Source: Bacteroidota bacterium (GTDB taxonomy: Bacteria; Bacteroidota; Ignavibacteria; Palsa-1295). From it: a DNA stretch of 64,000 bases. The stretch is from the NCBI GenBank assembly GCA_018266755.1, contig JAFDZW010000001.1, forward strand, positions 211,635 through 275,634. Reading direction: 5' to 3'. The position numbers were made by a program, and so were the translations under genes. Shown here piece after piece: positions 23,885-38,217 of the stretch (its first letter is position 1; each line of letters begins with the position of its first letter). The notes beneath the pieces are model-generated. The model did not search any database. It was not told the DNA's origin and saw only the letters and a list, made by a program, of their open reading frames with translations.

Positions 23885-23926
23885 GAACTGTGCAATGTGT
23901 TGAGTTCTCGGCGTATTTTTGGCTTC

Positions 23927-24688
23927 GTGAACTACCTACAGGATCTTTTCGGACTTTCGGGAAAGACCGCCATCGTTACCGGCGCGAGCCGCGGGCTTGG
24001 GCGGGCTGCTTCACTTGCGCTTTCGGGAGCGGGTGCTAACATGGTGCTCGTCGGGCGTGATGGTGTTGCGCTTGATGAAACCAAGCGCGAGCTTTCGGGC
24101 GAGGCGATGATCGTCGAAGCAGATGTGACCTCCGCGAGTGATCTCGAACGGACGATCGATGCGGCGAAACACCAGTTTGGTGCGATCGACATCCTCGTCA
24201 ATAATGCCGGCATCATACGTCGCTCACCCGCGATGGAATACTCGATCGAAGACTGGGATGCGGTGATCGAGACGAACCTGACGGCAGTGTTCGAATGGTC
24301 GCAAGCCTGCGCGCGTGAGATGGCGAAACGCGGCGGCGGGAAAATCATTAATATTGCATCGCTCCTCTCGTTTACCGGCGGGATGAATGTTGTTGCGTAT
24401 GCCGCAGCAAAAGGTGGCGTCGCACAACTCACGAAGGCTATGGCGAATGAGTTTGCGTCGCATGGGATTACTGTCAACGCGATCGCTCCGGGATATTTCG
24501 AGACCGATGCGACAGCCGGTGTCCGGCAGAACCCGGATCGCATGTCACAACTACTCTCTCGGATTCCGTTGGGACGATTCGGCCGTCCCGACGAACTTGC
24601 AGGTGCGTTCGTTTTCCTCGCATCGCATGCCTCCGATTACATGACCGGGCACATTCTCACAGTCGATGGCGGTTTCAATTCCTACTAA
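23927..24688 (+). CDS. SDR family oxidoreductase, KduD-like
   Basis: 253-residue classical SDR. The nucleotide-binding loop is VTGASRGLGRA, with NNAG, the catalytic serine segment NIASLLSFTGG, YAAAKGG as the Tyr/Lys pair, and the ending LTVDGGFNSY. Closest in feel to 2-deoxy-D-gluconate 3-dehydrogenase (KduD) and gluconate 5-dehydrogenase types (start pattern LFGLSGKTAIVTG). GTG 23927 (MNYLQDLFGLSG) is preferred to GTG 23897. The two genes downstream are a KduI/IolB-like isomerase and an RraA-like aldolase, so a sugar-acid catabolic role is likely. Substrate not proven. Confidence 0.85.
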   Translation: MNYLQDLFGLSGKTAIVTGASRGLGRAASLALSGAGANMVLVGRDGVALDETKRELSGEAMIVEADVTSASDLERTIDAAKHQFGAIDILVNNAGIIRRSPAMEYSIEDWDAVIETNLTAVFEWSQACAREMAKRGGGKIINIASLLSFTGGMNVVAYAAAKGGVAQLTKAMANEFASHGITVNAIAPGYFETDATAGVRQNPDRMSQLLSRIPLGRFGRPDELAGAFVFLASHASDYMTGHILTVDGGFNSY

Positions 24689-24714
24689 GCGATTCTCTGT
24701 GAACCTCTGTGCAT

Positions 24715-24769
24715 CCTCTGTGTACCTCTGTGGTTAAAGATTCTGCTCAACCACAGAGGTACACAGAGG
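24715..24769. repeat. Perfect 21-bp inverted repeat (CCTCTGTGTACC family)
   Basis: Left arm 24715-24735 and right arm 24749-24769 are exact reverse complements (21 bp) around a 13-base loop. Looser pairing of CTCTGTG-type units extends it to about 24694-24789. It lies between the SDR and the isomerase gene and would form a strong RNA hairpin. It resembles a dispersed palindrome more than a classical terminator because no T tract follows. Confidence 0.8.
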
Positions 24770-24824
24770 GCACACAGAGTCGCACAGAGAGTGAGTGGCA
24801 GATTCACCGTTACTTCATCAGTAG

Positions 24825-25619
24825 ATGTCACACAAGTGGTTGTTTCGCAATACTGCATCGCAACGAGGTCGGCACATTTCGATCTCGCCTGCGAACAGCG
24901 AGTTCAAGTTCATCTCTGCGGGTCGTATTATCCTTGATCAGAGTATGCCATCTGCAACGGGGAGTAATCCCGGTTCGGAGACGACACTGCTGTGTTTGCA
25001 TGGCAGCGGTCGCGTTACCGTGGATGGGAAGACGTACGAGTGTTCGCGTTTTGACGGGATGTACATTCCGCGAGGTGCCGAATTCGAGGTCACGACGGAT
25101 GATTACGTCGATATCGTGGAGGCGTCGAGCCCCACGTCCAAAGATCACCCGGTCCGCTATGTGAATTTCGAAAACGAAGTGAAGGAGAGCGATTCGCTTA
25201 CGCTCCGTGTCGGCGCCGAGCCATATTACCGGGATATCCATAAAGTGATCGCCGAGAATGTCGAAGGCTCGCGGCTTTTGATGGGCGTGACCATGTCGAA
25301 GCCCGGCAACTGGACGAGCTGGCCGCCGCACGAGCATGCCGACACTCGCGAAGAACTCTACCTCTTTTTCGACATGCCGCGTCCGGGATTCGGGACGCAG
25401 TTTATCTACCATGATCTGATGAATCCGGAATTCTCCGAACCGGTGTTCGGGAACGACGCGGTCACCATTGTCGAAGGATACCATCCGAATGTCGCCGCGC
25501 CAGGCTACCCGATCAATTTCTGCTGGGCGCTGTGTTCGCTTGAGGACGATACCTGGCGCACGCTTGCGAACGTGAACGTTCAGAAAGGGTTCGAGACCAT
25601 GCCGACAGGATTAAAGTAG
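24825..25619 (+). CDS. KduI/IolB-family isomerase (5-deoxy-glucuronate isomerase-like)
   Basis: 264-residue double-cupin protein of the KduI/IolB family, which isomerises 5-deoxy-glucuronate (inositol pathway) or 5-keto-4-deoxyuronate (pectin and alginate pathway). Metal ligands are visible: His169 and His171 in WPPHEHADTREE, Glu176 and His220 in EGYHPNVAAPGY, matching the His-x-His...Glu...His set of KduI. The text around GNWTSWPPHEH and GYHPNVAAPGYPINFCW reads more like IolB. ATG 24825 starts 136 bases after the SDR, with the palindrome between. The substrate remains open between the two pathways. Confidence 0.8.
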   Translation: MSHKWLFRNTASQRGRHISISPANSEFKFISAGRIILDQSMPSATGSNPGSETTLLCLHGSGRVTVDGKTYECSRFDGMYIPRGAEFEVTTDDYVDIVEASSPTSKDHPVRYVNFENEVKESDSLTLRVGAEPYYRDIHKVIAENVEGSRLLMGVTMSKPGNWTSWPPHEHADTREELYLFFDMPRPGFGTQFIYHDLMNPEFSEPVFGNDAVTIVEGYHPNVAAPGYPINFCWALCSLEDDTWRTLANVNVQKGFETMPTGLK

Positions 25620-25693
25620 AACCAACGATGCAGTGGCTCCGGCTATCGCCGGACGCGCACCTGTTAAAACTGGCTCCACGTTTGGAAGTACTG

Positions 25694-26341
25694 ATGAAAG
25701 AGATATTAGATTTTTTTGAGACACTCTACACCCCGCTGGTGAGCGACACCATGGATAAACTTGGCATTCACGGCCAAGTGGTCGATCACGCAGTGCAGTC
25801 GATGTTGTTCGACCCTCAGCTGAAGGTTGCAGGCATTGCGTATCCGTGTAGGGTCGTTCCGACACGGGAGTATGTCGAGATTGGTACCTTGCTCGAGATG
25901 GTCGATTCGATCCCTGCGGACTCGATGGTACTGGTCGCTGCCGATTCCGATATCGATGCCGCACTCTGGGGAGGCATGATGTCATCTCGGTCGAAGGCCA
26001 GGGGAGCTCGAGGTGCGGCGGTCAATGGCGGGGTACGGGACGTCGAACAGATCGCCGACCTCAATTTCCCTGTGTTCGGTACATATCGTTGCGTCAAAGA
26101 TATCCGTACCCGAGGATATATGGCCGAATATAATTGTGCGGTCAACTTCGGAGGTGTCGAGGTACGGCCCGGTGATATTGCCTTTGCCGACGCAAATGGG
26201 ATAGTAATCATACCATCGCAGCACCTACACTCTATCCTTGCCGTACTTACCGAAGCAAAGTTGAATGAAGACCGAACGATTAGCGGCCTCTCGGAAGGGA
26301 AAAGTGCTCAATCCTTATACAGTGAGTATAAAGCATTTTGA
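25694..26341 (+). CDS. RraA-like/HMG-CHA aldolase family protein
   Basis: 215 residues of the RraA/4-hydroxy-4-methyl-2-oxoglutarate aldolase fold. The fold marks are LVSDTMDKLG near the N-terminus, the glycine-rich segment GARGAAVNGGVRD that contacts phosphate or carboxylate, and GGVEVRPGDIAFADANGIVIIP. True RraA inhibits RNase E, whereas many relatives are divalent-metal aldolases or decarboxylases of keto acids. Context after an SDR and a KduI/IolB-like isomerase favours the enzyme. ATG 25694 is preferred to 25628 because the extra 22 residues do not resemble the family. The final codons are followed by an AT-rich gap. Confidence 0.78.
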   Translation: MKEILDFFETLYTPLVSDTMDKLGIHGQVVDHAVQSMLFDPQLKVAGIAYPCRVVPTREYVEIGTLLEMVDSIPADSMVLVAADSDIDAALWGGMMSSRSKARGARGAAVNGGVRDVEQIADLNFPVFGTYRCVKDIRTRGYMAEYNCAVNFGGVEVRPGDIAFADANGIVIIPSQHLHSILAVLTEAKLNEDRTISGLSEGKSAQSLYSEYKAF

Positions 26342-28902: not shown

Positions 28903-31900
28903 ATGCTGTCTATGCGGAGAGTAATGCGATATCTGTCGGTGCTGATGATTGCGCTCGGAGCAATCCCATCGCTCCGTGCACAGCAGTCGCTCTATCGCTT
29001 GCGCTTGCAAGACTCGCTGAGCCATGCGCTCACACTTGGCGGGCCGAGCACTGGGTTCTCGTCAAATTGGACACTGCGCTTTCCCGGAAGTGGGGCCAGC
29101 GCCGGATCGTTGCTCTACGCCTCCGATGGCGCCGGGCAGCTCTCATGGCTGACCCCCGGTTCGAACACACAGGTACTGACTCTCGTTGGCGGAGTGCCCA
29201 CCTGGGCCCCACCCGCCTCCAGCGGAACAGTCACCAGTGTCGGACTCTCGCTTCCAACGAACGAGTTTACCGTAACGAACTCGCCTGTGAGTTCTTCAGG
29301 GACGCTCACCGGTTCGTGGAAAACACAAGCTCAGAATCTCGTATTCGCTTCGCCGAATGCTTCGACGGGAGTGCCATCGTTCCGTGCCCTCGTAGCCGGT
29401 GACATTCCGTCACTCGCATACGTCACAAGTGTCGGTCTTTCTCTTCCGTCGTTATTCACAGTCAGCGGTTCCCCGGTGACCACGAGCGGTACGCTCAGCG
29501 CAACGCTTGCCACGCAGTCGGCTAACATGGTATTCGCCGGCCCGACGACCGGTGTTGCCGCGGCTCCGACCTTCCGGTCGTTGGTTGCATCGGATATTCC
29601 GTCACTTGCATATGTCACGAGCGTGGGATTGTCCATGCCGTCCGGCTTCACGGTATCGAACTCTCCGATTACATCGAACGGTACGCTTGCCGTCACGACA
29701 ACGCTCAACGGTCCGCTTCGCGGTAACGGTAGCGGGTTTACGACCGGCAATCTGAATCTTGCCTCGGAAGTCACGGGCACGCTTGGCGTAACCAATGGTG
29801 GAACGGGCACGAACACACAGTTCACGCAGGGCAGCGTGATCTTCGCCGGTGCGAGCGGCGTGTACTCGCAGAACAATGCAAGTTTCTTCTGGGACAATTC
29901 GAATAGCCGGCTTGGGATCGGAACGAGTAGCCCCGGGACATCACTCGATATCAACGGTGCATTGACCAACCGTGAGACGTCGCTCGCGGTCGCCTCGAAC
30001 GCCGCCACGATCCCATCGAACTCAAGTCAGATCCAATTGACAGGTGCTGCAACAGGGACTGTTGCCTTGACCGGACCGACGACGCCACCGACGGGTCAGC
30101 GGTTAGTCGTGTACAATAACACGACGGGCGGCAATGCAGCGACGCTTGCCGGATATACAATTCCGAACGGACAAGCGATCGAGTTCGTCTACACCAACGG
30201 CGCATGGAGATCGGTCACGGGTACGACCGCCCCAACCGGTGGAACTGTCACGAGTATCGGTCTGACGATGCCAACAGGGTTCAGCGTGGCAAATTCACCA
30301 ATTACGACAAACGGGACGCTTGCCGTCACTACGTCGCTCAACGGACCGCTGCGTGGAAATGGTACCGGATTTACCACAGGTAACACGAGCCTTACTTCGG
30401 AAGTATCTGGAATCCTGCCTGTCGCGAATGGCGGTACAGGGTTGAACACTTCTGCGACCGCAACTGGCAGCCTGCTCTATACATCGTCAGCAGGAACGTG
30501 GTCGACGCTTTCCCCCGGCGCCAACACCAACGTACTGACCTTGGTGGGTGGTGTACCGACCTGGCAGGCCCCTGCGACGAATGGAACGGTGACGAGCGTC
30601 GGACTTTCCATGCCATCGATCTTCTCAGTCTCTAATTCGCCGGTCACCACGAGCGGCACCTTGACGGCAACGCTTGCCACACAGTCTGCCAACATGGTAT
30701 TCGCCGGCCCGACGACCGGTGTTGCTGCGGCCCCGACCTTCCGGTCGTTGGTTGCATCGGATATCCCATCACTTGCATATGTCACGAGCGTGGGATTGTC
30801 CATGCCGTCCGGCTTCACGGTGACAAACTCTCCAATTACATCGAACGGTACGCTTGCCGTCACGACAACGCTCAACGGTCCGCTTCGCGGTAACGGCAGC
30901 GGGTTCACGACCGGCAATCTGAATCTTGCCTCGGAAGTTACGGGCACGCTTGGCGTAACCAACGGTGGGACGGGCACGAACACGCAGTTCACGCAGGGCA
31001 GTGTAATCTTTGCCGGTGCGAGCGGTGTGTACTCGCAGAACAATGCAAGTTTCTTCTGGGACAATTCGAATAGCCGACTCGGGATCGGAACGAGTAGCCC
31101 CGGGACATCACTCGATATCAACGGTGCTCTAACCAATCGTGAGACGTCGCTCGCGGTCGCTTCCAATGCTGCCACGATCGGTGCTAATATCGGTCAGGTG
31201 CGGTTGACAGGCACTGCTACTGGTGCAATTGCTTTGACAGGACCGACGCCGACGAATGCCGGTCAGTACTTGACAGTATATAATAATACCACAGGTGGTT
31301 TTGCTGCAACGCTCAATGGATATACCATCCCGAACGGTCAGGCGTTAGAGTTTATCTACTCAAATGGTGGTTGGCGTTCGCTGATCGGCGCTACTTCTCC
31401 GGGCGGAAGCGGTACTGTCACGAGCGTGGGTCTTTCTCTTCCGTCGTTATTCACAGTCAGCGGTTCTCCGGTGACCACGAGCGGTACGCTCAGTGCTACG
31501 CTTGCCACACAGTCTGCCAACATGGTATTCGCCGGCCCGACGACCGGTGTCGCCGCAGCCCCGACGTTCCGGTCGCTGGTTGCATCGGATATCCCGTCGC
31601 TCAACTATGTAACGAGTGTGGGATTGTCTCTTCCGTCGTTATTCACAGTCAGCGGTTCTCCGGTGACCACGAGCGGTACGCTCAGCGCAACGCTTGCCAC
31701 ACAGTCGGCAAACATGGTATTCGCCGGCCCGACGACCGGTGTCGCCGCGGCCCCGACCTTCCGGTCGTTGGTTGCATCGGATATTCCGTCACTTGCATAT
31801 GTCACGAGCGTGGGATTGTCCATGCCGTCCGGCTTCACGGTGACAAACTCTCCAATTACATCGAACGGTACGCTTGCCGTCACGACAACGCTCAACGGTC

Positions 31901-32943
31901 CGCTTCGCGGTAACGGCAGCGGGTTCACGACCGGCAATCTGAATCTTGCCTCGGAAGTCACGGGCACGCTTGGCGTAACCAATGGTGGAACGGGCACGAA
32001 CACACAGTTCACGCAGGGCAGTGTGATCTTTGCCGGTGCGAGCGGTGTGTACTCGCAGAACAATGCAAGTTTCTTCTGGGACAATTCGAATAGCCGACTC
32101 GGGATCGGAACGAGTAGCCCGAATACATCTGTCGATATCGTAAAAGATTTCGCTACGCGGGAATATAATTATTCCACAAGTATTTCGGGTTCGAATAATA
32201 ATGTTAACTTCGATGGTTCGGGCAATCTCTTCGGCATGGTGCGAATTGCATCTGCGTCGGCTGCATTTACGTTGACGAGTATTGCGGGGCCGCAAAACGG
32301 CAAGCGGATCACGATCTATAATGCGAGCAGTCAATCAATGACGTTGGCGAATCAGTCGTCAGCATCCGGGGCGACTGCCGCAAACAAGATTATCACGGGT
32401 ACTGGTGCAGATGTTACAATCCCTTCCGGAGGTACGGCAAATCTGTTGTATAGTGCTACCGATTCGCGGTGGGTCGTGATGTCGAGTTCGCTTGGTAATG
32501 TATCGTCGACAGGTACTTCCTTGCAAGTCACACCGTCGGATCCAACAGGTACAAGCAGTGGGACAGGGGTCATGATGGGCCTTGGTTCATCTGCGTCCTT
32601 TACGCCGACAAAGAGCGGTAAAGTGCTCATTATAATTTCCGCGTCGGAGAATAATAACGCTGGTGGTAACGGAGGCCAAATGCAGATACGATATGGAACC
32701 GGTTCCGCCCCGAGCAATGGTGCGGCACTGACCGGAACGACTGCTGGCAATCTGGCTCAAGGATCTCCTTCTGATCCCAGCGGTGCGAATAGTGCTCAGC
32801 ATCATGAGACGATTCCGATGACATGTAATGCCGTGGTAAGCATGACCGTCGGTACCACATACTGGATTGATGTGAGTGTGGCACAAATTGGCGGAGGTAC
32901 AGCAGAGATAGTTGGGGTTAGTATCTCGGCGATTGAGTTTTAA
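28903..32943 (+). CDS. Giant secreted beta-strand repeat protein (fibre/adhesin-like)
   Basis: 1346 residues, signal peptide at the N-terminus (...MRYLSVLMIALGAIPSLRAQ). The body is built from two module types. A short module of about 64 residues (VTSVGLSLPS...LVASDIPSLAY) occurs five times. A long module (VTSVGLSMPSGFTVTNSPIT...FFWDNSNSRLGIGTSSP) occurs three times plus one variant. The GIGTSSP-LDINGA motif is common in tail-fibre-like and Bacteroidota surface proteins. The last 130 residues differ and end in TYWIDVSVAQIGGGTAEIVG, a likely C1q/TNF-like beta-sandwich cap. Near-identical DNA repeats make length change by recombination likely. No T9SS tail recognised. Confidence 0.75.
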   Translation: MLSMRRVMRYLSVLMIALGAIPSLRAQQSLYRLRLQDSLSHALTLGGPSTGFSSNWTLRFPGSGASAGSLLYASDGAGQLSWLTPGSNTQVLTLVGGVPTWAPPASSGTVTSVGLSLPTNEFTVTNSPVSSSGTLTGSWKTQAQNLVFASPNASTGVPSFRALVAGDIPSLAYVTSVGLSLPSLFTVSGSPVTTSGTLSATLATQSANMVFAGPTTGVAAAPTFRSLVASDIPSLAYVTSVGLSMPSGFTVSNSPITSNGTLAVTTTLNGPLRGNGSGFTTGNLNLASEVTGTLGVTNGGTGTNTQFTQGSVIFAGASGVYSQNNASFFWDNSNSRLGIGTSSPGTSLDINGALTNRETSLAVASNAATIPSNSSQIQLTGAATGTVALTGPTTPPTGQRLVVYNNTTGGNAATLAGYTIPNGQAIEFVYTNGAWRSVTGTTAPTGGTVTSIGLTMPTGFSVANSPITTNGTLAVTTSLNGPLRGNGTGFTTGNTSLTSEVSGILPVANGGTGLNTSATATGSLLYTSSAGTWSTLSPGANTNVLTLVGGVPTWQAPATNGTVTSVGLSMPSIFSVSNSPVTTSGTLTATLATQSANMVFAGPTTGVAAAPTFRSLVASDIPSLAYVTSVGLSMPSGFTVTNSPITSNGTLAVTTTLNGPLRGNGSGFTTGNLNLASEVTGTLGVTNGGTGTNTQFTQGSVIFAGASGVYSQNNASFFWDNSNSRLGIGTSSPGTSLDINGALTNRETSLAVASNAATIGANIGQVRLTGTATGAIALTGPTPTNAGQYLTVYNNTTGGFAATLNGYTIPNGQALEFIYSNGGWRSLIGATSPGGSGTVTSVGLSLPSLFTVSGSPVTTSGTLSATLATQSANMVFAGPTTGVAAAPTFRSLVASDIPSLNYVTSVGLSLPSLFTVSGSPVTTSGTLSATLATQSANMVFAGPTTGVAAAPTFRSLVASDIPSLAYVTSVGLSMPSGFTVTNSPITSNGTLAVTTTLNGPLRGNGSGFTTGNLNLASEVTGTLGVTNGGTGTNTQFTQGSVIFAGASGVYSQNNASFFWDNSNSRLGIGTSSPNTSVDIVKDFATREYNYSTSISGSNNNVNFDGSGNLFGMVRIASASAAFTLTSIAGPQNGKRITIYNASSQSMTLANQSSASGATAANKIITGTGADVTIPSGGTANLLYSATDSRWVVMSSSLGNVSSTGTSLQVTPSDPTGTSSGTGVMMGLGSSASFTPTKSGKVLIIISASENNNAGGNGGQMQIRYGTGSAPSNGAALTGTTAGNLAQGSPSDPSGANSAQHHETIPMTCNAVVSMTVGTTYWIDVSVAQIGGGTAEIVGVSISAIEF
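29422..30012 (+). repeat. Long intragenic direct repeat, block 1
   Basis: 591-bp block encoding one short plus one long module. Nearly identical to 30589-31179 and, for its first 512 bases, to 31609-32120. Differences seen are scattered, mostly third-position changes. Confidence 0.8.
30589..31179 (+). repeat. Long intragenic direct repeat, block 2
   Basis: 591-bp copy of block 1. After it the sequences diverge (IGANIGQVRLTG against IPSNSSQIQLTG), although the following domain is homologous. Confidence 0.8.
31417..32120 (+). repeat. Tandem short module plus long direct repeat, block 3
   Basis: 31417-31608 and 31609-31800 are adjacent 192-bp copies of the short module. 31801-32120 is the long module shared with blocks 1 and 2, cut off at GGGATCGGAACGAGTAGCCC. 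Confidence 0.8.
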
Positions 32944-32981
32944 TGGTTTAGATAGTATAGCTGATATATTAGTTTTTCTCC

Positions 32982-33078
32982 CTGCTCACACGGGGTCCCG
33001 TCCCCGAAAACAACGGGATGTTGATAAGGCAAACTAATGGCTCCCCGCGTTCTCCGGAACGTGGGGAGTTATTTTTTT
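32982..33078 (+). ncRNA. Structured RNA element, copy 1, ending in intrinsic terminator
   Basis: 89 bases (32982-33070) repeated at 33408 with a single difference (A at 33008). CGGGG (32991-32995) pairs with CCCCG (33002-33006). The intervening loop TCCCGT pairs exactly with ACGGGA (33013-33018), so an H-type pseudoknot or two alternative hairpins are possible. Then a 25-base linker with GATAAGGCAAACTAATGG, then a 12-bp terminator stem (33041-33068) and TTATTTTTTT. It sits 38 bases after the giant fibre gene. The layout recalls the Chlorobi-1 RNA motif description (stem-loops then terminator), but I could not compare sequences. Confidence 0.7.
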
Positions 33079-33407
33079 GAATGGGGATATACGTAAAATC
33101 ATCGTTACATCCTACACACCAAGCTGAATATCACTGGAGAACGCGTGTATTTTATCTATATGGATTACTATACTTAAGGCAAATTTTGGTGAAGATTTTG
33201 CGCAATCATGACCGAAGAATTCATCGTCACCGCTGGCGGAAATTATCACGTCGAGTGAGCTTTTTCTAAAAATTCATCCCGAAATAATGCAACTGTGCTG
33301 CATAACATTGCGTTAATTTTTATGCCGAACACTACGGGAAATTCAAATGCTTCATTACGTACCCTGACCTGTTCGAGCACAACGATCGTATAGATTTCTC
33401 TTATTCA

Positions 33408-33502
33408 CTGCTCACACGGGGTCCCGTCCCCGAGAACAACGGGATGTTGATAAGGCAAACTAATGGCTCCCCGCGTTCTCCGGAACGTGGGGAGTTTTTT
33501 TT
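33408..33502 (+). ncRNA. Structured RNA element, copy 2, ending in intrinsic terminator
   Basis: 88 of 89 bases match copy 1, including all paired bases. The single change is G at 33434 in the presumed unpaired linker. The terminator stem spans 33467-33494 and is followed by eight T. It ends 24 bases before the lipoprotein start, so it is either an independent small RNA or the attenuator leader of that gene. The 329 bases between the copies (33079-33407) are AT-rich with no supported gene. Confidence 0.7.
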
Positions 33503-33526
33503 ATGCATCGGCGCTTAGTGTATGAT

Positions 33527-33907
33527 ATGCGGATCCGATACAAACTCAGCCTGGGCGTGTTATTACTATGCAGCGGGTGTTCGTCAACCGATATAACATC
33601 TGCCGATCAGATCGTCTTTCCGGCGACGAATGTCAGTTACAAAGCACACGTCGCGCCACTGCTTGCGATCGCGTGCAATGCGGCAGGATGCCATGATATG
33701 GCACGACCTGAAAATGCAAATGTGGATCTGACATCATGGATCTCGCTTCGCGGTTCGACGAATGTCGTCAATCAGCCTGGCGATACGAATTGCGGGTTGG
33801 TGAAGGTCGTCTATGCCCGCGTCGGGCATCCGGGACCGCTGCGAATCAATGACAATCATCGTCAAGGGATCAAACAATGGGTGATCGAAGGCGCACAAAA
33901 CAATTGA
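33527..33907 (+). CDS. Lipoprotein with CX4CH cytochrome c-like motif
   Basis: 126 residues. ATG 33527 gives MRIRYKLSLGVLLLCSGCSS with lipobox ending at Cys18, so it is probably an envelope lipoprotein. ATG 33503, directly after the T run of the RNA element, would add eight residues. The segment VAPLLAIACNAAGCHD (Cys50, Cys55, His56) is the variant CX4CH seen in many Bacteroidota proteins annotated as cytochrome c-like, and the ending IKQWVIEGAQNN matches that group. Heme attachment is not established for CX4CH here. The stop overlaps the GWxTD gene by 31 bases, so translational coupling is likely. Confidence 0.7.
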   Translation: MRIRYKLSLGVLLLCSGCSSTDITSADQIVFPATNVSYKAHVAPLLAIACNAAGCHDMARPENANVDLTSWISLRGSTNVVNQPGDTNCGLVKVVYARVGHPGPLRINDNHRQGIKQWVIEGAQNN

Positions 33908-35301: not shown

Positions 35302-35463
35302 TATAGTCTGTTACCAAGTTTCTTTTTGCCGGACGTCCCCTTTTTCCTAAAGGGACTCAATATATTTTTCTCCCAGAGTGTCACACGACGCAACTACTGC
35401 GTGTCATAACACGCAAAGGGCGGATTTTTGCCCTGCTCATTCCACAAACAAAAGAACTCGGTC

Positions 35464-38217
35464 GTGAACACTACCACTCAGCACTTCCTCGCTGCACAAG
35501 GACGCCGAATCGCGATCCTCTCAATGTTCGTAACGGTCTTAGTGATCGCTGCACAATATGCCACATCACACTCCGGCGGTATGACCGGGCAGACAAATAA
35601 GTCCGGCGACGGACAAGGGTGCACCTGCCACTGCGCCAACTCGAACAGCAATACCACCGTCACCATCTCAACGAATGCAACCTCGTTCGAGGCAGGCCAG
35701 ACGTATTCATTCACGATATCGGTATCGAACGGGAATGAAGTCAAAGGCGGCTGCGATATCGCTGTTCAAAGCGGTACACTTGCTGCCGGTGCCGATGGTT
35801 TGCAGTTGAGCGGAACGCAGCTCACGCATACCTCACCGAAGACCTTGCCTGCTACCTGGAGCTTTACGTACACCGCACCGTCGACCGCAGGTACCGATAC
35901 TATCTTCGCAGCAGGCAACGCAGTCAATAACGATGGCGGCAACGGCGGCGGCAACTGCACCGACCAGTGGAATTTTGCATCGAAGTTCGTGATCAACGTC
36001 ACGGCGCCTCAACGGACGCTGGTACTCTCGCGCAACTCGATCGCGTTCGGCTCGCGCCGCGTCGGCGGTTCGTATACCGATACGATGCGCATTTCTTCCA
36101 CAGGCAATGCAACCGTCGCTATCTCGTCGCAGTCGATGAAGACCGCCAACCCGATTACGAACTCCGTTACCGGATCCGCGAACCTGAGTGCCGGATCCAG
36201 CGAGACACAGACGATCACGTTCGCACCTACTTCGCGCGGATCGTTCACCGATACGCTTGTTGTCGCATCGGACGCGAATAATAACAATCTTGCGAGCCCG
36301 ACCAGACAGACGGTCACGGTTACGGGTACGGGAGTTCAGGCCATCTTTAACGGCGCGAACACAGTGAATTTTGGCTCGGTCCGAGTTGGCGCGACCAAGT
36401 CATTGACTTACTCGATCGCAAATACCGGGGACGACACGCTGTTCTTGACGGCACCGTCGATTACCGGTTCGAATGCAGGGGCGTTTTCGATTACTTCTCA
36501 ACCGACGCTGACAATTCCTCCGGGTGGAAATACATCGGTCGGTATTCAATTCGCACCGCTTACGAAGCAGCAGTTGACGGCGACACTGTCGCTCACGGCA
36601 TCGAACGGCGTAAGTGTTCCGACGATCACCCTTGGTGGCACCGGTACGGCACCGATCGTTACGATCTTGTCGATGACCGATCTGGGGACCGGCCGTGTGG
36701 GCGGCACGCGGAACGGTTCGATCCAAATCAGCAACGGTGGTGATGCGGATCTGAATATTTCCTCGATCACGATCAGCAATCAGGCGCAAGGGAGCAAATT
36801 CTCTTTCACCGGATCGACTGCTGCGGTGATCACGCCGAATAATTCAACAGTGTTCCAGATGCAATATTCGCCGACGAGCGAACGCACGGACTCGGCGATC
36901 ATCACCATCAACAGCGACGATATTACGGCACCTTCGTTCAAGGCGACCGTCATCGGGGAAGGTGGATTGCCGAAAATGGCGCCGCTTCAGACCGACACGA
37001 TCAAGTTCGGTGATGTTCGCGTCGGAGCCAATGCACAGAATTTTTCTTTGCAAATCAAGAACAACGGCACCTATGACCTCGTGGTGAATTCGATCGATGT
37101 CACCCCGTCGCAATTCACCGTTGTCGGTAAGCCTTCGACAGTTGCCCCGAAGGGTGCCGGCCAGGTAACACTGAAGTTCGCGCCCACGGCGGCCGGGAAG
37201 GTCGTCGGCACGATCATCGTCCATGGCGACGATGTGAATAATCCCGTCGACACCGTCTATGTCAGCGGGAACGGGACGATCTCGAACTTCGACATTCCGT
37301 CGGGCATTTCCTTCGGCGATCAGAAGCTCAATACATCGAAGGATACGCTCATCAAATTGCGCAATCTCGGTACTGCTCCGGTCAAAATCCTGCAGTACGG
37401 CCTTACCGATCCGAGCAACGGATTCCAACTCTTTAGCGACACGGCCGCCGTTCGCCAGATCAATCCGCATGACAGCGCGACGATCAAGCTGCGGTTCAAT
37501 GCATTCAAAGAGCAGTCCTTCTCCGGAACGCTCTCGATCACGACCGACGAAGGCAGCTCGAGCATTCGTCAGATCCAGCTCACCGGACGTGGCGTCAACT
37601 CGAAGCTGACGATCGGCGTGAGCTCGCTCGATTTCGGCACCGTCGACAGTGCGACTACTCTCGTGAAGAGCTTCTCGATCACGAATACGGGTACTGCACC
37701 GGCGACGATCAATGCGCTGACACTCACCGGCTCGACAGAGTTCGCCGTGGATTCGCCGAAGACGGCATTCACGATCGCCGCCGGTGGCTCGACTACAGTG
37801 CTCGTGCAATTCGCTCCGGTGTCAGCCGGTATTGCCGATGGTACGCTCACGATCTCATCGGCCGAAGGCTCGTCGCCGCAAGTGCTTCTGCATGGGATCG
37901 GCAAAGGCAAAGTAGATACCACGCAATCCGGTTCGGTGCGTGTGGTAGCGCCGCAAGTCGGGTTCGTCCGCGTGGTGCCAAATCCGGCAACGACTGCCGC
38001 AACGCTCTCGATGGGCCTCGTCGCACCACTATCGGATGTGAAGATTTCGTTCTACGATGCCGCTGCTCGGTTGGTGGCATCGCAATCGGTCGGTTCGCTT
38101 GACGAAGGCGTGCAGCAAATACCGCTCACGCTCCCGGCCATCTCGGGTGTCTCTTTCGTACGGATCACATCGAGTGGGATGTTGGTCGGTACGGTGGAGA
38201 TTGTGATCACTCGCTGA
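35464..38217 (+). CDS. Large secreted protein: choice-of-anchor V, multiple choice-of-anchor D (Ig-like) domains, T9SS tail
   Basis: 917 residues from GTG 35464 (the open frame extends to TTG 35428). After a hydrophobic leader (RRIAILSMFVTVLVIAAQYA) comes a choice-of-anchor V-like domain (GGMTGQ, then GCTCHC). Then at least six Ig-like ASH/choice-of-anchor D repeats, each with a LxFGxxxVG or INFGSVRVG start (SIAFGSRRVGG, TVNFGSVRVGA, TIKFGDVRVGA, GISFGDQKLN, SLDFGTVDSA). The last 80 residues (VRVVPNPATTAATLSM...) form a type A T9SS sorting domain. Expected to be exported to the cell surface. Role unknown. Confidence 0.85.
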   Translation: MNTTTQHFLAAQGRRIAILSMFVTVLVIAAQYATSHSGGMTGQTNKSGDGQGCTCHCANSNSNTTVTISTNATSFEAGQTYSFTISVSNGNEVKGGCDIAVQSGTLAAGADGLQLSGTQLTHTSPKTLPATWSFTYTAPSTAGTDTIFAAGNAVNNDGGNGGGNCTDQWNFASKFVINVTAPQRTLVLSRNSIAFGSRRVGGSYTDTMRISSTGNATVAISSQSMKTANPITNSVTGSANLSAGSSETQTITFAPTSRGSFTDTLVVASDANNNNLASPTRQTVTVTGTGVQAIFNGANTVNFGSVRVGATKSLTYSIANTGDDTLFLTAPSITGSNAGAFSITSQPTLTIPPGGNTSVGIQFAPLTKQQLTATLSLTASNGVSVPTITLGGTGTAPIVTILSMTDLGTGRVGGTRNGSIQISNGGDADLNISSITISNQAQGSKFSFTGSTAAVITPNNSTVFQMQYSPTSERTDSAIITINSDDITAPSFKATVIGEGGLPKMAPLQTDTIKFGDVRVGANAQNFSLQIKNNGTYDLVVNSIDVTPSQFTVVGKPSTVAPKGAGQVTLKFAPTAAGKVVGTIIVHGDDVNNPVDTVYVSGNGTISNFDIPSGISFGDQKLNTSKDTLIKLRNLGTAPVKILQYGLTDPSNGFQLFSDTAAVRQINPHDSATIKLRFNAFKEQSFSGTLSITTDEGSSSIRQIQLTGRGVNSKLTIGVSSLDFGTVDSATTLVKSFSITNTGTAPATINALTLTGSTEFAVDSPKTAFTIAAGGSTTVLVQFAPVSAGIADGTLTISSAEGSSPQVLLHGIGKGKVDTTQSGSVRVVAPQVGFVRVVPNPATTAATLSMGLVAPLSDVKISFYDAAARLVASQSVGSLDEGVQQIPLTLPAISGVSFVRITSSGMLVGTVEIVITR

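Follow-up and report, generated by a model that had tools for sequence, protein, structure and literature searches.

The two near-identical elements in the window (the whole stretch of DNA analysed, 64,000 nucleotides) are, as judged by comparison with related genomes, members of a conserved RNA family whose copies were detected in a narrow clade. We consider it reasonably likely that the copies are separate small-RNA genes, each ~100-110 nt long, and that the sibling RNAs act in trans. The family itself, its pairing, its conserved core, its terminators and its gene arrangements are established. The suggestion of a tandem small-RNA family in the original prediction is therefore supported, as homologues with compensatory changes and terminators were found and none of them matched Rfam.

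Twin elements in the window

The 89-mers at positions 32982-33070 and 33408-33496 were confirmed to be identical at 88 of 89 residues. The sole mismatch, A33008/G33434 at position 27, had been described as unpaired and this is also the case in the fold that is supported by the relatives. The bases between the copies are unrelated to the elements as proposed, but they number 337 (33071-33407) and not 329, and no blastn match to this spacer was found in the rest of the window or in the related loci. A whole-genome search of the 3.55 Mb genome (G000) located the near-identical 89-mer only at the two window sites; a third, diverged copy (G000c) is found at G000:C1:610672-610747. When the 5' arm, hairpin, invariant linker and terminator are taken together, the elements extend over 32971-33078 (copy 1) and 33397-33502 (copy 2) of the forward strand. 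Both belong to the type 2 elements and were scored by our covariance model R1 at 75.3 bits (E 5e-17) and 72.7 bits respectively, each being a member of the model seed.

Copy 1 follows a giant fibre gene as described, where the fibre-like ORF ends at 32943, ~30 nt upstream. Copy 2 is indeed close to a lipoprotein start at 33527, although the ATG lies 30 bases past the end of the 89-mer and not 24, and the ORF has an additional in-frame ATG at 33503. This short lipoprotein-like ORF (33503-33907) starts at most 30 bases from the copy 2 terminator and its own promoter is not evident. The fibre-like ORF (28903-32943) encodes a secreted protein of 1346 aa with several near-identical internal repeats and without a Pfam match, and a 929-aa protein with repeated ASPM/SPD-2/Hydin-type Ig domains is encoded at 35428-38217.

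Hairpin and covariation

The complementarities CGGGG/CCCCG and TCCCGT/ACGGGA, the linker and the GC-rich terminator with its T run were all found in both copies as predicted. The whole element folds better than its shuffles, with z-scores of -5.3 and -4.1 for the two window copies, and no such difference is seen for the isolated 60-nt 5' part (z -0.7). The energy signal therefore stems from the terminator, and because folding energy reveals the terminator only, evidence on the 5' part has to be sought in the relatives.

Comparison with the relatives favours a main hairpin formed by TCCCGT/ACGGGA, in which CGGGG is the bulge. In copy 1 the hairpin (32988-33021, forward strand) is formed by the pairing of ACA (32988-32990) with TGT (33019-33021) and of TCCCGT (32996-33001) with ACGGGA (33013-33018), and CGGGG (32991-32995) is bulged out. 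The same pairs are found in copy 2 with a shift of 426 (33414-33447, forward strand) and are likewise supported by covariation. The alignment of related genomes that had been proposed for examining covariation revealed two-sided changes at seven of the nine hairpin pairs among nine distinct members, in a count for which the stems were excised by hand beforehand and where two lineages, represented by the window copies and the genome G005, contribute most of the double changes. In the nine distinct sequences, 97.5% of the hairpin cells are paired, compared with 82% in shuffles and 21-70% when the alignment is slid. The consensus hairpin consists of an ACA/TGT base helix, a purine-rich bulge and an inner helix of at least five pairs. 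The sequence of the inner helix was observed to change between members, with GCCGTT/AACGGC present in most, TCCCGT/ACGGGA in the window and GATGGT/ACCATC in G005. Upstream of the hairpin, the 5' arm is CUCAC-rich with the consensus TTTCTCACC..CTCAC.

Pairing between CGGGG and CCCCG is possible in the window copies and had been read as part of a pseudoknot. As a family trait the pseudoknot was not borne out, since bulge and loop show strong complementarity in the window copies alone and lose it in the relatives; once the window copies are left out, cognate bulge-loop pairs do not outperform swapped ones (fraction 0.43). An on/off switch in which the CGGGG strand pairs with the terminator stem had also been suggested. 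With -16.4 kcal/mol this duplex is strong for the window copies, but it is not conserved: the energy between the 5' part and the terminator is -13.3 kcal/mol in one relative (G006a) and -3 to -10 kcal/mol in the others, so that it is strong in two of eight sequences. A conserved, mutually exclusive antiterminator was rejected as duplex energies range from -3 to -16 kcal/mol across the eight sequences. Both the pseudoknot and the switch are thus largely peculiar to the window copies, and neither is a property of the family.

Linker core and terminators

The linker of the family members, GAUAAGGCAAACUAAUG, contains a core of 13 nt, and the consensus between hairpin and terminator is GATAAGGCAAACTAATG. 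The core ATAAGGCAAACTA was observed in all twelve copies, whereas the sequences of the hairpin, loop and terminator differ. In copy 1 the conserved linker is TGATAAGGCAAACTAATG (33022-33039, forward strand), which includes the core, and in copy 2 it is located at 33448-33465 on the same strand, where it is identified by its sequence conservation. The linker also resembles a Shine-Dalgarno arrangement (AAGG-N7-ATG), with ATG present in ten of the twelve copies and TTG in an eleventh; the G005 copy is without the ATG.

The built-in terminator with its T run was recovered, with a stem of 14-17 bp and not of 12 bp as first described. In copy 1 it occupies 33036-33078 of the forward strand, with 17 pairs in the stem (33036-33073) followed by the T run and an energy of -26.3 kcal/mol, and in copy 2 it occupies 33465-33502, also on the forward strand, with 14 pairs (33465-33496) and a T run. 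Every full copy (10/10) has at its end a terminator hairpin followed by a T-rich tail, and the nine distinct full copies, when folded separately, gave terminators of -17 to -26 kcal/mol.

Distribution of the family

Our first homologue search covered 61 related genomes, of which three further genomes of the same taxonomic family were found to have clear homologues: G001 (recorded as Bacteroidetes bacterium), G002 (Bacteroidota bacterium) and G006 (Ignavibacteriae bacterium). R1 was built from ten sequences, which match it by construction. It identifies twelve copies, distributed as three in G000, one in G001, four in G002, two and a variant in G006 and one in G005. These five genomes represent three or four genera (g1, g2, g5) of one taxonomic family. 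Independent finds of the model are G006:C228 (33.5 bits) and the divergent G005 copy (24.3 bits). By eye, the latter was seen to have TTTTCTCATCGCTCAC, a different yet paired hairpin and then GATAAGGCAAACTA. The G006:C228 variant (L057, 1654-1740) has the core and the terminator without the usual 5' hairpin, and its CCTTAT could pair with ATAAGG of the core.

No R1 match was observed in genus g3 (seven mostly complete genomes) or in g4. When genomes of the class (391) and of the phylum (395) were searched with the covariance model, only weak matches were obtained outside the family, and those inspected are without the exact core. Furthermore, matches to the exact core pattern outside the family in 84,980 species and viral contigs look chance-like, having neither hairpin nor terminator, and no match to the element was found in plasmid and phage collections. 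Two types can be distinguished by terminator and overall identity, namely the secD-proximal type (G000c, G001, G002d and G006b) and the window type (the window pair, G002a-c and G006a).

Genomic context

In G001, G002 and G006 one copy is located directly (<200 nt) upstream of secD-secF, which is followed by STAS and purA. In G000 the corresponding copy, G000c, is 6.3 kb from secD (G000:C1:610747-617040, L056). The genes in between, which are absent from this position in G001, are ArsR-like, SdpI, serine-hydrolase and IgGFc-binding-type genes. The secD gene of G000 keeps a 55-nt upstream block that is conserved with G001, where the block lies downstream of the element. In both G001 and G000 the secD-type copy is found behind a divergent conserved gene, which belongs to the EB_dh family in G001, so that these copies are not the 3' UTR of that gene. 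A tRNA gene is located on the same strand ~370 nt upstream of the element in G001 and is similarly placed in G000; it could in principle give rise to the element transcript, although this is unlikely.

The window also encodes, at 23897-26341, a trio of SDR, KduI-like and RraA genes that match those immediately preceding the secD-associated pair of elements in G002. This suggests that the latter pair and the pair of the window come from one ancestral region that would later have been split by rearrangement and by the insertion of surface-protein genes. We also noticed that the content enclosed by element pairs differs across genomes, being a fibre gene, a DUF4382 gene or a non-coding spacer. 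The enclosing pairs are located at L053 8215-9610, L052 7020-8560 and window 32982-33496, as if intergenic spots swap surface-protein genes.

Probable small-RNA genes and alternative explanations

Neither a consistent leader position nor a consistent 3' UTR position accounts for these contexts, which point to a stand-alone gene. The RNA would start with an unpaired CUCAC-rich 5' arm, followed by a hairpin of fixed shape and changing sequence, a mostly unpaired linker with the fixed core AUAAGGCAAACUA and the intrinsic terminator, which would form the 3' end. The siblings would fall into two paralogous types, the secD-proximal one and the one duplicated in the window. Action in trans would most likely be exerted via the shared linker, perhaps together with the CUCAC arm, either through short duplexes with mRNAs or through protein binding. 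Separate transcription, action in trans and the linker as a seed or protein site are what we infer from the established features.

A sigma-70 promoter scan upstream of both window copies gave no two-box match. Weak -10-like hexamers, TATATT for copy 1 (32965-32970) and TATAGA for copy 2 (33389-33394), were read by eye on the forward strand, and such hexamers were seen in this way in some family members only. Hfq (PF17209) was not matched in the genome by a search that detects it in five controls, E. coli among them, and the candidate small RNAs are probably Hfq-independent. Four genomes contained no conserved site complementary to the linker at 13/14 positions, which suggests that target pairing, if any, is shorter or that the linker binds a protein. 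The negative promoter scan, the failure to find such a site, the closeness of copy 2 to the lipoprotein ORF and of copy 1 to the fibre gene, and the upstream tRNA gene in G001 weigh against the small-RNA reading.

The original prediction had also raised an attenuator or a riboswitch. Such a cis-acting element would precede secD-secF-STAS-purA and the window lipoprotein gene, with a ligand, or a ribosome at AAGG-N7-AUG, governing the terminator. The copies close to secD in G001, G002 and G006 are consistent with this, as are window copy 2 directly before the lipoprotein ORF, the linker abutting the terminator and the strong duplex between 5' part and terminator in the window and G006a. However, that alternative pairing is not conserved, and no element could be recognised within the 400 bases read upstream of secD in the g3, g4 and g5 genomes. 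In addition, not every copy is placed so that it could serve as a leader: copy b of G002:C140 is located between convergent ORFs and thus cannot be a leader, and G000c is remote from a secD that retains its own upstream block. A leader role is therefore disfavoured and we regard it as unlikely. The same G002 copy b lies behind a fibre-like gene, window copy 1 follows the fibre-like ORF and the G006 core-plus-terminator variant is 23 nt behind a Peptidase_S74 fibre gene, which would fit a 3' UTR terminator, or a 3'-UTR-derived small RNA, of surface-fibre genes. This explanation is quite improbable because the G001 and G000c copies are behind a divergent gene, the copies before secD have no fibre gene, and G002 copy a is preceded by another hairpin and T-rich stretch, seen by eye, as a possible end of the upstream gene.

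The AAGG-N7-AUG arrangement of the linker could also be the start of a leader-peptide gene, given the Shine-Dalgarno-like spacing and the start codons of eleven copies. The frames from this ATG vary between 5 and 62 aa in length and are conserved neither in their end nor in their sequence, their first codons merely equal the terminator stem and G005 has no ATG, and we find such a gene extremely unlikely. A dual-use RNA is very unlikely. Its linker would be a ribosome-entry site abutting the terminator, with 30S binding and release setting termination; the copies in front of secDF would report translation or secretion capacity and the stand-alone copies would be small RNAs. At the DNA level, a repeat bounding exchangeable surface-gene cassettes, such as an integron attC-like or other recombination site, would account for the differing content between element pairs and for same-genome copies that are 88/89 or ~93% identical amid unrelated flanks. 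Against it, no integron integrase (TIGR02249) was found above the curated cut-off, with only a tyrosine-recombinase background as in 14/14 control genomes; no GTTRRRY/RYYYAAC box pair was seen by inspection, and a terminator on every full copy suits an RNA better. The probability of this repeat is slight, a shade below that of the dual-use RNA. Small-RNA genes thus remain our preferred explanation.

Relation to known RNAs

The sibling multi-copy small RNAs Qrr, OmrA/OmrB and LhrC consist of a hairpin, an unpaired conserved stretch and an intrinsic terminator. The element has the same architecture and likewise occurs in several copies per genome, some of them side by side, but no sequence relation was found and no Hfq was detected in the genome of the window. 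Leaders of secDF that encode arrest peptides with a signal sequence (VemP, ApdA/ApdP) share the position upstream of secDF, whereas the element has no conserved ORF.

Searches of the window and the relatives against Rfam 15, both strict and permissive, gave no family at the gathering threshold for any element, and the only Rfam hits in the window above threshold are two tRNAs. The best chance match was anti-hemB (RF02837), which scored 19.7 bits (E 0.04) where the cut-off is 49.5; it resembles the element in its terminator-hairpin end and aligned solely via the terminator and a C/G-rich stem. Chlorobi-1 (RF01696; PMC2864571), which had been put forward as a possible identity, is similar in having stem-loops followed by a terminator and in coming from a neighbouring phylum, but it was not matched by cmscan even at E up to 10, or at E up to 5 in the relatives. 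Literature searches found no described counterpart of the element and no described small RNA in the lineage. The RNA family is new to Rfam 15, and the type of object is already known.

Biological implications

This work adds an RNA family that is absent from Rfam 15, and the fixed core of 13 nt allows its functional site to be tested directly. With two old paralogues, of which one is beside secDF, and with recent duplicates near surface-protein genes, the family is a candidate regulator of the cell envelope or of secretion in a genome with no detected Hfq.
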